Source of the DNA: an uncultured Clostridia bacterium
GTDB lineage: Bacteria; Bacillota; Clostridia; Christensenellales; Borkfalkiaceae
NCBI GenBank assembly: GCA_947625385.1
Contig: CANQOB010000016.1
Coordinates: forward strand, 1 to 32,433
DNA length: 32,433 bases
Direction: 5' to 3'
Shown here: positions 14,410-28,281 of the stretch, piece by piece
Layout: every line of letters begins with the position of its first letter
Numbering within the stretch: the stretch's first letter is position 1
Translations under genes and position numbers: made by a program
Notes under the pieces: generated by a model
Databases searched by the model: none
Seen by the model: the letters and a program-made list of their open reading frames with translations, nothing else
What the model was told of the DNA's origin: nothing

Positions 14410-14664
14410 ATGATTCGCATTTGGGCAAAAATTTACAAGGATGACCGCATCGCCAAACAGCTGACTTACGAAAAGGAGGGGAGCTTTTCGTATGCCGACT
14501 TCTTCGGCTATCTCGCCGAGATCTGCGACGGGCTGGATATCCCCACCCCCGTCCTCTTGAAAACGCACCTCTTCAACTTTGCAAAGTTCCGCCATACCGT
14601 GTTCCGCCCGCGGGACTTTGTGGAGAGCGTCTCCTTCGAGAAACTCGTTCTCGAAGCGCTTTAA
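14410..14664 (+). CDS. Small conserved-looking protein of unknown function, 84 residues
   Basis: A soluble-looking protein with MIRIWAKIYKDDRI at its start, an aromatic and acidic middle (FSYADFFGYLAEICDGLDIP) and a charged C-terminal part (FRPRDFVESVSFEKLVLEAL). The aligned promoter, the lack of other readings and ordinary codon use support a real gene. I do not recognise a family with certainty. It converges with the next gene, sharing a TTAA that supplies both stop codons. Its only visible terminator (14896-14927) lies beyond that gene, so its transcript is antisense to it. Confidence 0.75.
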   Translation: MIRIWAKIYKDDRIAKQLTYEKEGSFSYADFFGYLAEICDGLDIPTPVLLKTHLFNFAKFRHTVFRPRDFVESVSFEKLVLEAL

Positions 14665-14870
14665 GAGAGAAAGCGCAGCGGACGGAAGGCGATGAGCCAG
14701 AAGAGGAGCCACGCCGCCGCCACGCCCGCAAGGGAGAGGAGAGCCCGATAGACGATCACATTCCCCGCGCACACAAAGAGCAGCAGGGAAAATCCCGAAA
14801 AGGCATACACCGTCGCAAAAAATCCGAAGAGAATGAGGATGGCGCTCGCAAGAATGGTGGTAAGTTTCAT
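14661..14870 (-). CDS. Small two-helix membrane protein, unknown function
   Basis: 69 residues. There are two hydrophobic segments, about 5-25 and 28-62, with a positively charged end (FRPLRFLS). It starts 55 bases after the end of the YjjG-like gene with no terminator acting on this strand in between, so it is probably the last gene of that operon. There is no clear ribosome site before the ATG. Its stop codon overlaps the stop of the convergent 84-residue gene. Function unknown. Confidence 0.6.
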   Translation of the reverse strand: MKLTTILASAILILFGFFATVYAFSGFSLLLFVCAGNVIVYRALLSLAGVAAAWLLFWLIAFRPLRFLS

Positions 14871-14895: not shown

Positions 14896-14927
14896 CTTTT
14901 TACTCCGCCTTCCGGGCGGAGTTTTTT
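14896..14927 (+). terminator. Rightward rho-independent terminator
   Basis: 8-bp stem ACTCCGCC (14902-14909) with GGCGGAGT (14915-14922), followed by a T run to 14927. On the minus strand the sequence after the stem is A-rich, so it acts on the plus strand only. It would end the transcript of the 84-residue gene. Confidence 0.8.
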
Positions 14928-15618
14928 ACAACAGGTTCAACAGTTCTTTGAGGGAGCGGATCTCCCGCACGCCCGACGGGCAGACTGCGCCGCGGCGGTT
15001 CAGCCAAACGCTGTCCATCCCGCACGCCTGCGCCCCCGCGATGTCGGCAGAGAGCGAATCCCCCACGAACAGACAGTTTTCGGCGCTCTCGCCGAGCGCC
15101 TCGAAGATGCGGGAAAAATAGTCGGGACTCGGTTTGACGGCGCCGAGCTCCTCGGAGACGAAAATGCCGTCCAGCCCGAACGCGGAGAGCCTCGTCTTTT
15201 GCAGCTCCGAGAGCCCGTTGGTCGCCGCATAGAGACGGTATTTTCCTTTGAGCGCGCCGACGACTTCTTCCGCCCCTTCCATCGGCTGCCCGGGCATGGA
15301 AAACTCCTTCATGAACGCGCGCTCCGCCTCGCTCGCCTTGCCGTTAAATCCGCATACCATGTCCGCATGTACGAAGATGTCGTGGACATGGTTGCGGTAT
15401 AATTCATGGAAGTTATCGCGGACATGGGGTAGGTGAACGTCGCAGAGCCCCACGAGGTCCCAGTTCCCGAAGTCGAACCGAACGAGCACGTCGAGCGCCT
15501 CTTCATCGCCCTCCCGCCCCACGGCGCAAAGCGCCGCGCGGAATGCCCGCTCGGAATCCTTGGCATAATCGACGAGCGTGTCGTCTGCGTCAAATAAAAT
15601 ACATCGATACGGCTTCAT
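14926..15618 (-). CDS. yjjG: HAD-superfamily YjjG-type nucleotidase
   Basis: 230 residues. HAD motifs: DADDT with the nucleophile Asp10 and Asp12, ATNG (motif II), Lys in GAVKPSPDYF (motif III) and GDSLSADI (motif IV). The cap domain (about 16-90) and overall sequence fit the YjjG/YfnB branch, whose E. coli member removes phosphate from non-canonical pyrimidine nucleotides and from dUMP and dTMP. A role in nucleotide-pool cleaning is inferred. The ATG follows GGTGAT, four bases after the stop of the small upstream gene, so the two are coupled. Transcription comes from the promoter at 15900-15928, across the DnaA-box palindrome. Confidence 0.85.
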   Translation of the reverse strand: MKPYRCILFDADDTLVDYAKDSERAFRAALCAVGREGDEEALDVLVRFDFGNWDLVGLCDVHLPHVRDNFHELYRNHVHDIFVHADMVCGFNGKASEAERAFMKEFSMPGQPMEGAEEVVGALKGKYRLYAATNGLSELQKTRLSAFGLDGIFVSEELGAVKPSPDYFSRIFEALGESAENCLFVGDSLSADIAGAQACGMDSVWLNRRGAVCPSGVREIRSLKELLNLL

Positions 15619-15622
15619 GAGA

Positions 15623-15826
15623 TCACCAATCCTGTTTTTTCAAAGATTTGTCCTTGACGTCGTCGTAAAATGCAAAATAGTCGCGCTTCCAATCCTCGAA
15701 GGAGAGCGGCTGTTCTTCGCCGCGCGCATAGCTCAGATAGGCTTCGAGCTCTTCGGGCGTGAAGTCGCCCTCGGAGATCTCCCCCTCGTATGCGGAAAAC
15801 AGTTTCATAAGGTCCAGCTTGCTCAC
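15623..15826 (-). CDS. Small acidic protein of unknown function, 67 residues
   Basis: Start chosen at GTG 15826, which has AAAGGAGAG five bases upstream; an ATG at 15853 lies within the DnaA boxes and has no ribosome site. The sequence begins (M)SKLDLMKLFSAYEGEI and continues with an acidic, aromatic stretch (FTPEELEAYLSYARGEE, FEDWKRDYFAFYDD), ending in a Lys-rich tail. It is predicted to be helical and soluble. No family recognised. It is the first gene of an operon with the YjjG-like nucleotidase and a membrane peptide. Confidence 0.7.
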   Translation of the reverse strand: MSKLDLMKLFSAYEGEISEGDFTPEELEAYLSYARGEEQPLSFEDWKRDYFAFYDDVKDKSLKKQDW

Positions 15827-15845
15827 AGCGCCTCTCCTTTCGGGG

Positions 15846-15878
15846 TTATCCACTTATCCACAATGGGATTGTGGATAA
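15846..15878. promoter_or_regulatory. Cluster of three DnaA boxes, two forming a 25-bp palindrome
   Basis: TTATCCACT (15846-15854), TTATCCACA (15854-15862) and TGTGGATAA (15870-15878). The last two are perfect and form an uninterrupted 11-bp inverted repeat with a 3-base centre (15854-15878). The cluster lies just downstream of the minus-strand promoter at 15900-15928 and about 75 bases from the MarR promoter. DnaA bound here would sit in the path of RNA polymerase. Confidence 0.85.
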
Positions 15879-15899
15879 CTTCGCACCCCTTGTGACAAT

Positions 15900-15928
15900 A
15901 GTATATCAGAAATTGCCGCAAAAAGCAA
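15900..15928 (-). promoter_or_regulatory. Promoter of the small protein-YjjG operon
   Basis: Minus-strand TTGCTT (15923-15928), 17-bp spacer, TATACT (15900-15905). The start would be near 15893, about 15 bases before the DnaA-box palindrome. Confidence 0.6.
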
Positions 15929-15953: not shown

Positions 15954-15982
15954 TTGACGAAAGACGCCGTATGGGGTATAAT
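15954..15982 (+). promoter_or_regulatory. MarR-gene promoter
   Basis: TTGACG (15954-15959), 17-bp spacer, TATAAT (15977-15982), about 30 bases before the ATG at 16012. Confidence 0.8.
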
Positions 15983-16011: not shown

Positions 16012-16449
16012 ATGGAAGAATTGGAATTGGAAGAAGAGGTCATCACCGCATGGGTGCGCCTTACGGGGATTCTGAAAAACACCCGTCTGACAAAGGGCAT
16101 GATCTACAACGAAGCCGTCATCATGCTCCTTGTCAACCGCCGGTACAATGAGGACGGCGAGGGGCTCGTCTCCTTCAAGGAGATCGTTTCCGAGACGAAG
16201 ATGCTCAAATCGCTCGTCAACCGCACCATCGATTCGCTGGTCAGAAAAAATCTCTTGGAGCGCTGCGAGGGCGAAAGCGACCGCCGCACGACCTTCGTGC
16301 GCCCCGTCAAGGAGAACCTGCCGCAATACCTCGAAGTGCACCGCCGCACGCTGGAAATGGTGAAAAAGATCTTGGAAATCGTCGGCAGAGAGGATGCCGC
16401 CGCATTCGTGCGCATCTCCAAACGAATCTCGGAGATCTGTCCCGAGTGA
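16012..16449 (+). CDS. MarR-family transcriptional regulator
   Basis: 145 residues, a usual MarR length. A winged helix-turn-helix is visible at about 55-110: SFKEIVSETKMLKSLVNRTIDSLVRKNLLER, followed by the wing CEGESDRRTTFVRP, whose DRR triplet is typical. Flanking helices would make the dimer interface. Start ATG 16012 has GGGGGA upstream; an earlier in-frame ATG at 15985 lies at the expected transcription start. It is divergent from the YjjG operon, across the DnaA boxes. The ligand and targets cannot be inferred; no clear palindromic operator is seen at its own promoter. Confidence 0.88.
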   Translation: MEELELEEEVITAWVRLTGILKNTRLTKGMIYNEAVIMLLVNRRYNEDGEGLVSFKEIVSETKMLKSLVNRTIDSLVRKNLLERCEGESDRRTTFVRPVKENLPQYLEVHRRTLEMVKKILEIVGREDAAAFVRISKRISEICPE

Positions 16450-27199: not shown

Positions 27200-27600
27200 C
27201 GGTTCCTCCGTCAGATGATATTTTTATAAGAAAATAGATTTATCAGTAATAATAAAGGCTGTGGATTTGTGGACAAGCATCCCGCGCCTCTTCAAATCTT
27301 CTCTATTATACAGGAAAACAGGGAAAAATTCAAGCTTTTTTCCTGCGTTTTCAAAAATAGAAGAGGAAAAAAACAAGTGGACAAGTTGTGGACAGGCTGT
27401 CGATAAAAAGGGAGCTTTTCACAGGAAAAAAGAGGGGGAGAAACGGGGAGAAAAAATCCGAACGGGGAGGGCGGGGGTTGTCCACAAAATCTTCCACAGT
27501 GTGGAAAAAAAGTTCGCCCGCCGTCCACACCGCGTGGAAATCGCAAAGCCTTCGGAGAATGCTTGTCAAACCGCAAAAAAAATGCTATAATAAGTCCGCT
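27200..27600. other. oriC: Predicted replication origin, oriC
   Basis: The gap between divergent dnaN and rsmG carries many DnaA-box-like 9-mers: TGTGGATTT (27260-27268), TGTGGACAA (27268-27276), AGTGGACAA (27376-27384), TGTGGACAG (27387-27395), TGTCGATAA (27398-27406), and on the other strand TTGTCCACA (27478-27486), with further near-matches around 27490-27508 and 27521-27529. Left of the first pair, CAGTAATAATAA (27244-27255) resembles a DnaA-trio next to an AT-rich stretch (27218-27243). Divergent gene orientation on both sides agrees. No box is a perfect match. Confidence 0.8.
27563..27591 (+). promoter_or_regulatory. rsmG promoter inside the origin region
   Basis: TTGTCA (27563-27568), 17-bp spacer, TATAAT (27586-27591), nine bases, then ATG at 27601. 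There is no ribosome site, so the mRNA would have at most a few leader bases. Confidence 0.7.
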
Positions 27601-28281
27601 ATGCAACGTCCGGATTTCGAAAAGATCAGTGCGCTTTTGGAGGAGAACAGAGAGAAATTCTCGGCATTCCGTTCCCTTCTTCTTGCGTATAACGAGAAAT
27701 TCAATCTGACCGCCGTCACAGAGGAGAGAGACGTCCTCTATAAACACTTCATAGACTCCTTGGCGGGGGAAGCGCTCTTTCCGAAGGGCGCCTCCGTCGC
27801 GGAAGTGGGCTCGGGCGCGGGATTTCCCTCCGTCCCGCTCATGCTGGTGAGGGACGATCTCACATTTTCGCTCTTCGAGAGCACGGGAAAGAAATGCGAG
27901 TTTTTGAGAGCCGTCATCCGCGAGTTCGGACTGCGTGCGCAGGTATTCTGCCTGCGCGCCGAGGAAGCGGCAAAACACGACCACCGCGAACGGTACGACG
28001 TCTGCTGCGCCCGTGCCGTCGCACGGCTGGACACGCTGGCGGAGTACTGTTTGCCGTTCGTGAGAAAGGGCGGTCTGTTTCTCGCTTATAAGGGCGCCGA
28101 CGACGAGCGCGCCTGTGCGGAGCACGCCGTCTCCGTGCTCGGCGGAACTTGGAAAGAGGCGGTCTCGTACGATCTTCCGGAGGGGTACGGGCGGCGGACC
28201 CTCGTCGCCGTGAAAAAGGAGAGACCTACCCCCGCATGTTATCCGCGCGGCAGGGGCGCGGAGAGGAAGGACCCGCTATGA
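27601..28281 (+). CDS. rsmG: 16S rRNA (guanine527-N7)-methyltransferase
   Basis: 226 residues. SAM-binding motif EVGSGAGFPSVPL at 68-80, YNEKFNLTAVTEERDVLYKHFIDSL before it, and C-terminal YPRGRGAERKDPL, all typical of RsmG (GidB). It makes m7G at position 527 of 16S rRNA. ATG 27601 matches the family start; upstream in-frame codons lie in oriC. Loss in other bacteria gives low-level streptomycin resistance. In most Bacillota it follows mnmG near the origin; here mnmE and mnmG are absent from the window. It overlaps the next gene by four bases. Confidence 0.95.
   Translation: MQRPDFEKISALLEENREKFSAFRSLLLAYNEKFNLTAVTEERDVLYKHFIDSLAGEALFPKGASVAEVGSGAGFPSVPLMLVRDDLTFSLFESTGKKCEFLRAVIREFGLRAQVFCLRAEEAAKHDHRERYDVCCARAVARLDTLAEYCLPFVRKGGLFLAYKGADDERACAEHAVSVLGGTWKEAVSYDLPEGYGRRTLVAVKKERPTPACYPRGRGAERKDPL

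Follow-up and report, generated by a model that had tools for sequence, protein, structure and literature searches.

A conserved DnaA-box cluster in the leader of a small-protein gene, a predicted DnaA operator in a genus of uncultured Clostridia

Introduction

Why would a gene for a small protein carry in its leader, 11.4 kb from the start of dnaN, a cluster of DnaA boxes? We addressed this question on a contig of 32,433 nucleotides from an uncultured Clostridia bacterium (CANQOB010000016.1 of assembly GCA_947625385.1; the whole stretch is called the window hereafter) and in the genomes of its genus, the relatives of Candidatus Gallimonas, which are uncultured gut bacteria. The initial annotation of the window had described a palindrome of two perfect boxes with a third box next to it, and had suggested that DnaA might there tie the cleaning of the nucleotide pool to replication initiation. 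From the comparisons presented here, the leader of the small-protein gene most likely contains a genuine DnaA operator that is conserved in the genus; what is new is most likely the gene, the geometry and the lineage, and what is known is the kind of site. Searching the open-licence literature, as judged by titles and the starts of abstracts, we found no report of the element or of the change in box code described below.

The three-box element of the window

The stretch at 15846-15878 reads TTATCCACTTATCCACAATGGGATTGTGGATAA and comprises two perfect DnaA boxes that face each other and one 8/9 box (Table 1). The two perfect boxes do form a 25-bp interrupted palindrome, with arms TTATCCACAAT and ATTGTGGATAA and GGG between them, and the third box is indeed present, overlapping the first by one base. 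With matches of 9/9, 9/9 and 8/9, the element is a DnaA-box cluster in the sense of several 9-bp boxes near TTATCCACA within a few tens of bases.

A chance origin of the cluster can be rejected. The window contains five TTATNCACA sites for 0.29 expected, and none of 100 shuffles had five. Moreover, the element scores 55 bits with a leave-one-out matrix (built from 47 of the 48 distinct elements, the one of the window being left out), the best of 200 dinucleotide shuffles reaching 11.3. Over the whole genome (1.66 Mb, 63 contigs), there are 25 TTATNCACA sites for 22 matches to the reversed control pattern. Since the genomic count is not raised, it is the cluster and not the number of single boxes that stands out; 15846-15878 is the only close pair among the 25 sites.

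Table 1. Positions in the window of the features discussed in the text
Feature	Position	Strand	Remark
69-aa peptide	14661..14870	-	hydrophobic by eye, membrane peptide of the initial annotation; without family match
HAD-superfamily hydrolase	14926..15618	-	YjjG-like, below curated cut-off
Conserved small protein, 67 aa	15623..15826	-	C-terminal DDVKDKSLKKQDW-type tail; GTG start
AGGAGAGG	15831-15838		ahead of the GTG start of the small ORF
Three-box DnaA element	15846..15878	.	boxes on 8-bp lattice
DnaA box TTATCCACT	15846..15854	+	8/9; one-base overlap with next box
Perfect DnaA box TTATCCACA	15854..15862	+	
Perfect DnaA box TTATCCACA, inverted	15870..15878	-	
Inferred small-ORF promoter	15900..15928	-	TTGCTT-N17-TATACT, extended -10 (TG at 15907-15908); read from sequence
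Divergent MarR-like regulator	16012..16449	+	start chosen by eye
Tandem 8-bp DnaA box pair of presumed oriC	27260..27276	-	TTGTCCAC/AAATCCACA, then trio-like TTATTATTACT; upstream of dnaN

On the minus strand, an extended -10, TGATATACT (by inspection), is followed by the boxes, a ribosome site and the 67-aa ORF with its GTG start. The likely start is the GTG at 15826 behind AGGAGAGG, so that we consider the protein to be of 67 and not 76 aa. The boxes had been placed directly past the promoter of the operon. The element starts 21 nt beyond the extended -10; the -35 is weak, and a consensus promoter scan did not call this candidate, calling only the promoter of the divergent MarR-like gene (TTGACG-N17-TATAAT, 15954-15982), which does not overlap the element. 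By inspection, the boxes of the window are downstream of the inferred promoter.

Conservation of the element in the genus

The box cluster recurs upstream of the small ORF across the genus: at least two close boxes are present in 56 of the 83 upstream regions with at least 100 nt available, against 0.02 in shuffled copies. An element scoring at least 22 of 27 on the 8-bp box lattice was found at 50 of 101 distinct loci from within and outside the genus. It follows the pattern TTATCCAC(A/T)TATC(C/A)ACA, seven free bases, TGT(G/T)GATAA, and is oriented relative to the gene one way in 36 cases and the other way in 14.

A sequence-only model, R1, was then run over 101 genomes of the genus and detected 68 strong sites in 66 genomes, a site being called strong at E below 1e-4 and matches on the two strands of one place being taken as a single site. 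As R1 was trained on the elements themselves, the E-values of its members are inflated, and the leave-one-out test given above is the clean one. The alignment A1 left out four of the 50 elements, namely L010 (weak first box), L075 and L088 (copies) and L100 (near copy). Sixty of the 68 strong sites are followed by the small ORF at a distance of at most 207 nt, and for 59 of these the distance is 4-74 nt. Four others stand at the start of the operon, at loci with an alpha/beta-hydrolase-like gene ahead of the small ORF, and the last four are elsewhere (in G108, G050, G011 and G033). Counted by genome, a strong site accompanies the small ORF in 64 of the 86 searched genomes that have this ORF and is missing in 22; the strong site of G050 is not at the ORF, hence 64 and not 65 genomes, and G141 and G142, which possess the small ORF, are outside the strong-site search, hence the denominator of 86.

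Some of the sites found elsewhere deserve a description of their own. A strong three-box element precedes an ftsH-like gene in G011 (L203, ~7648) and a degV-like gene in G050 (L202, ~2765). In G108 (L205, ~3013), which is without detectable small ORF, the element is kept about 1 kb from the gene of the 69-aa peptide, between transporter-like and secreted-protein-like genes. The ftsH-like, degV-like, transporter-like and secreted-protein-like genes were named by eye.

The position of these sites bears on the possibility that DnaA binds the element mainly as a reservoir or activity-setting site (compare datA, DARS and the DnaA-box clusters of B. subtilis), without regulating the small gene. In 10 genomes, 11-87 kb separate the small-ORF locus from dnaN, which is what a site near the origin would show; these genomes were picked by eye for having both genes on one contig, where only short distances can show, and not all of them have a strong element. 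However, a reservoir need not sit 4-74 nt ahead of the same start codon, as 59 of the 68 sites do, nor need it keep its place in front of the whole operon once a further gene has come in. We therefore regard this possibility as unlikely, while giving it more credit than the other alternatives below.

The conservation concerns the boxes more than the palindrome. The relative with the most similar small protein (84% identity; L066, which is G134 by its coordinates) has kept the same operon and the two tandem boxes, and the inverted box is absent. The initial annotation would have been contradicted by close relatives that keep the operon without the palindrome; L066 is in part such a case, the box cluster having been kept. 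It is the box cluster, and not the palindrome as such, that is fixed.

These data also speak to an RNA hairpin formed by the inverted repeat in the leader. Some covariation is seen in pairs of the inner arms (2 of 500 shuffles reach the score), and position 6 has an A-T/C-G association (p = 0.008, 48 distinct of 50 elements). However, symmetric change is also expected of half-sites read by one protein, the outer pair is broken in 31 of 46 elements and two further pairs in 17 and 13 of the 46, the element occurs in both orientations, and L066 does without the inverted arm. RNA would also leave unexplained why element, origin and DnaA helix changed together, as described below. A hairpin is thus disfavoured and highly improbable, although the covariation of the arms leaves an RNA role a slight chance.

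Candidate promoters were also sought ahead of the 50 elements. Nine elements other than that of the window have a candidate promoter 7 to 42 nt upstream, eight of which have an extended -10 at 22 to 42 nt; including the window, extended -10 candidates are 21-42 nt ahead of 9 of the 50 elements. In total, 10 of the 50 elements are preceded by a candidate promoter, against 4.8 in the average shuffle and 10 in the highest one, which makes these promoters weak evidence. Ahead of the elements preceded by a DUF4250 gene, no separate promoter is evident. The stop codon of DUF4250 often directly abuts the element (L041 and others), and a stop-like triplet, in any frame, lies within 12 nt of the element in 36 of 50 cases.

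The small ORF as the constant partner

Which gene goes with the element? Among the loci surveyed, which count at least two genomes twice (L073/L206 and L078/L207), the small ORF is followed by a HAD gene in 30 of the 81 that extend 900 nt or more downstream, has a divergent MarR-like neighbour in 55 of 84 and comes after a DUF4250 gene in 41 of 84. Present in just 30 of 81 loci, the HAD gene is disfavoured as the target. DUF4250 is disfavoured as the true partner too, since none was found in the genome of the window, where the element is nonetheless present. From these neighbourhoods, the gene that constantly goes with the element is the small ORF.

The proposed link with nucleotide-pool cleaning is not supported by this survey. 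It relied on a YjjG-type nucleotidase, and the HAD protein scores 109.5 bits against the YjjG/YfnB model TIGR02254, below the curated cut-off of 159.9, so that 'nucleotidase' is a guess; in addition, the gene is there in the minority of loci given above. The other part of the proposal, DnaA as the binder, is retained, on the grounds of box lexicon, geometry and joint change.

The divergent MarR-like gene raises a further alternative, as MarR proteins bind palindromes: the element could be the operator of this regulator, or of another repressor. The frequency of the divergent arrangement would agree with this. However, the element is present at four loci (L074, L075, L090 and L135) where tblastn found no MarR-like gene, which disfavours a MarR operator; moreover, the boxes and their spacing match those of the origin, and the switch in box code follows DnaA. 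We give this alternative as little weight as the hairpin.

The small protein was found in 53 of 61 genomes of the genus in a first set and in 35 of 42 in a second. None of the 37 rows of alignment A2 departs from its tail, DD(V/I)KDKSLKKQDW, which varies in G133 (within the genus) and in more distant homologues. The protein has no NCBIfam match and no Pfam match over the cut-off. Its predicted structure consists of three helices (mean pLDDT 70.9), with which a fold search of the PDB gave no match at E 0.001 or better. One match to the small ORF, G036:C3:5347-5559, contains an in-frame TAG.

Beyond the genus, the small protein occurs in several families of the order, in differing gene neighbourhoods; the order-wide count of 64 of 297 genomes includes the members of the genus and partial matches. 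At 21 loci outside the genus (L301 and L303-L322), none has two 8/9 boxes within 200 nt upstream of the small ORF, and a single box is present at L308. As the small protein reaches beyond the genus and the box cluster is absent at these 21 loci, the element looks like a genus-level addition.

Comparison with the presumed origin

The presumed oriC of the window is found at 27200-27600, flanked by dnaN on one side and, as named by eye, an rsmG-like gene on the other; dnaA is no neighbour of dnaN, being carried by another contig (L064, G000:C28). No DnaA box above 8/9 was found at 27200-27610 upstream of dnaN. The earlier statement that the leader has a better cluster than any single site of the predicted oriC, some 11 kb away, thus holds.

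A tandem 8-bp pair is present in 35 of 45 dnaN-upstream regions (mean 1.3 and maximum 5 in shuffles), and 33 of these 35 regions have a trio-like run at most 30 nt from it. In five genomes (G047, G117, G116, G007 and G019), weak matches to the first half of model R1 fall immediately ahead of dnaN. As shown by this comparison of sequences, the tandem pair of the leader has the same spacing as the box pair of the origin and much the same lexicon. In contrast, a trio-like run, the mark of an oriC or of a basal unwinding system, is found within 250 nt in 44 of 45 origins and within 125 nt on either side in 0 of 50 leader elements, which speaks against the leader being a second origin.

Apparent joint change of the DnaA helix and part of the boxes

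We read the DnaA recognition helix in 48 genomes; 99 had a match, and those not read resemble the VGY query less closely than do the three VGY genomes. In these three, G012 (L234), G016 (L236) and G119 (L298), the recognition segment is ILRRDHTTVGY, and the other 45 of the 48 have Ile in place of Gly. The three genomes form one clade with 100/100 support. By the E. coli numbering of PMC5043019, the Ile-to-Gly change of the clade is at position 438, and positions 438-439 are, in the portion of that paper used here, among the base-contacting residues of E. coli DnaA. The VGY genomes also have a one-residue gap ahead of the DH motif, which is not specific to the clade since G035 and G036 have it too.

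In both leaders and both origins of the clade that could be examined, part of the boxes change from CCACA to CCCCA. TTATCCCCA and its inverse are found in the leaders of G012 and G016, which are the only two among 101 with CCCCA boxes. Likewise, an inverted pair of CCCCA boxes is found, among 45 origins, only in those of G016 and G119 (L188 and L297). There are three T-N-TCCCCA boxes in the origin of G016 and two in that of G119, whereas the other 43 origins have 0.16 on average and never more than 1. Five of the 11 TTWTCCCCA sites of the G016 genome fall in its origin or leader. A control origin, L153, has a TCCCCA pair by a loose pattern, and one of its arms only resembles a box.

The switch is partial: the outer box stays CCACT in the leaders of G012 and G016, two boxes of CCACA type are kept in the origin of G016 and one in that of G119, and the tandem origin pair of the latter is still CCAC/CCAC. 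The search for dnaN gave nothing in G012, nor did that for the small ORF in G119, so that leader and origin are both seen in G016 only; the switch is one event, since the clade is single. Within these bounds, the box code follows the species' own DnaA, CCCCA boxes being found in leader and origin together with a VGY DnaA. This apparent joint change of the helix (VIY to VGY) and of part of the boxes is the best evidence for DnaA, and marks the leader site as a probably genuine target. Altogether, DnaA as the predicted binder is well supported by the lexicon, the geometry and this joint change.

A model for the leader element

We propose that the element is a DnaA operator, predicted to repress the small-protein gene from just beyond the transcription start, a reading to which we assign a probability of about 0.6. 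Bound cooperatively to the tandem pair and the inverted box, DnaA would sit at about +16 to +48 relative to the inferred start site and would thereby hinder initiation or elongation by RNA polymerase. The small protein would be low while active DnaA is abundant and rise once DnaA is drawn away or inactivated, for example after initiation. The regulated product common to the genus would be the small protein and not the HAD hydrolase. When a DUF4250 gene precedes, the element may act on readthrough. Positions downstream of the start site are the usual ones for repressors, and repression by a block of transcription fits the predicted position of the boxes.

The location of the window boxes downstream of the inferred start site also argues against activation by DnaA, or action in either direction according to the nucleotide that it carries, on the model of sda of B. 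subtilis. The precedent is a close one, DnaA being described in the portion of PMC4447404 used here as an activator of sda, a small-protein gene with a DnaA box array. We nevertheless consider activation improbable, and less likely than a reservoir.

That the small protein feeds back on replication is a guess. A broader proposal, which we put forward tentatively and with more doubt than confidence, is that DnaA directly represses a small replication-linked protein through an origin-type tandem pair plus an inverted box, in a feedback loop outside the sda, Hda and SeqA schemes, and that one clade is re-coding base 7 of the box (A to C) by an Ile-to-Gly change in the helix, origin and operator being rewritten together.

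Under the preferred reading, repression by DnaA, the element would be a genus-wide, sequence-defined predicted target of DnaA outside oriC in uncultured Clostridia, and would tie to the replication initiator an unannotated small protein with homologues across several families of the order. In the VGY/CCCCA clade, the DnaA-box code seems to have undergone a natural change, which may serve as a case for how an essential initiator changes its specificity together with its origin and regulon.

Comparison with known systems

The closest parallel is sda of B. subtilis, whose protein is a checkpoint regulator: according to the sections of PMC4447404 consulted, sda has at least seven numbered DnaA boxes and is activated by DnaA. 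In both cases, DnaA boxes are clustered ahead of a small-protein gene. Unlike at sda, there are three boxes here, in an 8-bp geometry and, in the window, beyond the inferred start site; the small protein also differs in being without NCBIfam match or Pfam match over the cut-off, as judged by family models.

The same sections report DnaA binding outside oriC with apparent direct repression at ywlC, vpr, ywcI-sacT and trmE-noc of B. subtilis (PMC4447404). The sites described here are likewise predicted DnaA sites outside oriC. However, the genes are different, and in most of our genus a single compact element goes with a single gene.

In the basal unwinding system, a co-oriented tandem pair of DnaA boxes guides DnaA, as outlined in the parts of PMC8287927 and PMC10721633 used here. 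A co-oriented tandem pair is also seen in our case, with a step of 8 bp in both the leader and the presumed origin. Unlike in that system, DnaA-trios are replaced in the leader element by a third, inverted box, and unwinding is not expected.

Finally, nucleotide genes are under the control of DnaA in E. coli, in the case of nrdAB and gua (PMC8203912, in the part drawn on here). The leader element differs from these in that a link with nucleotide genes is not supported, its constant partner being the small ORF.
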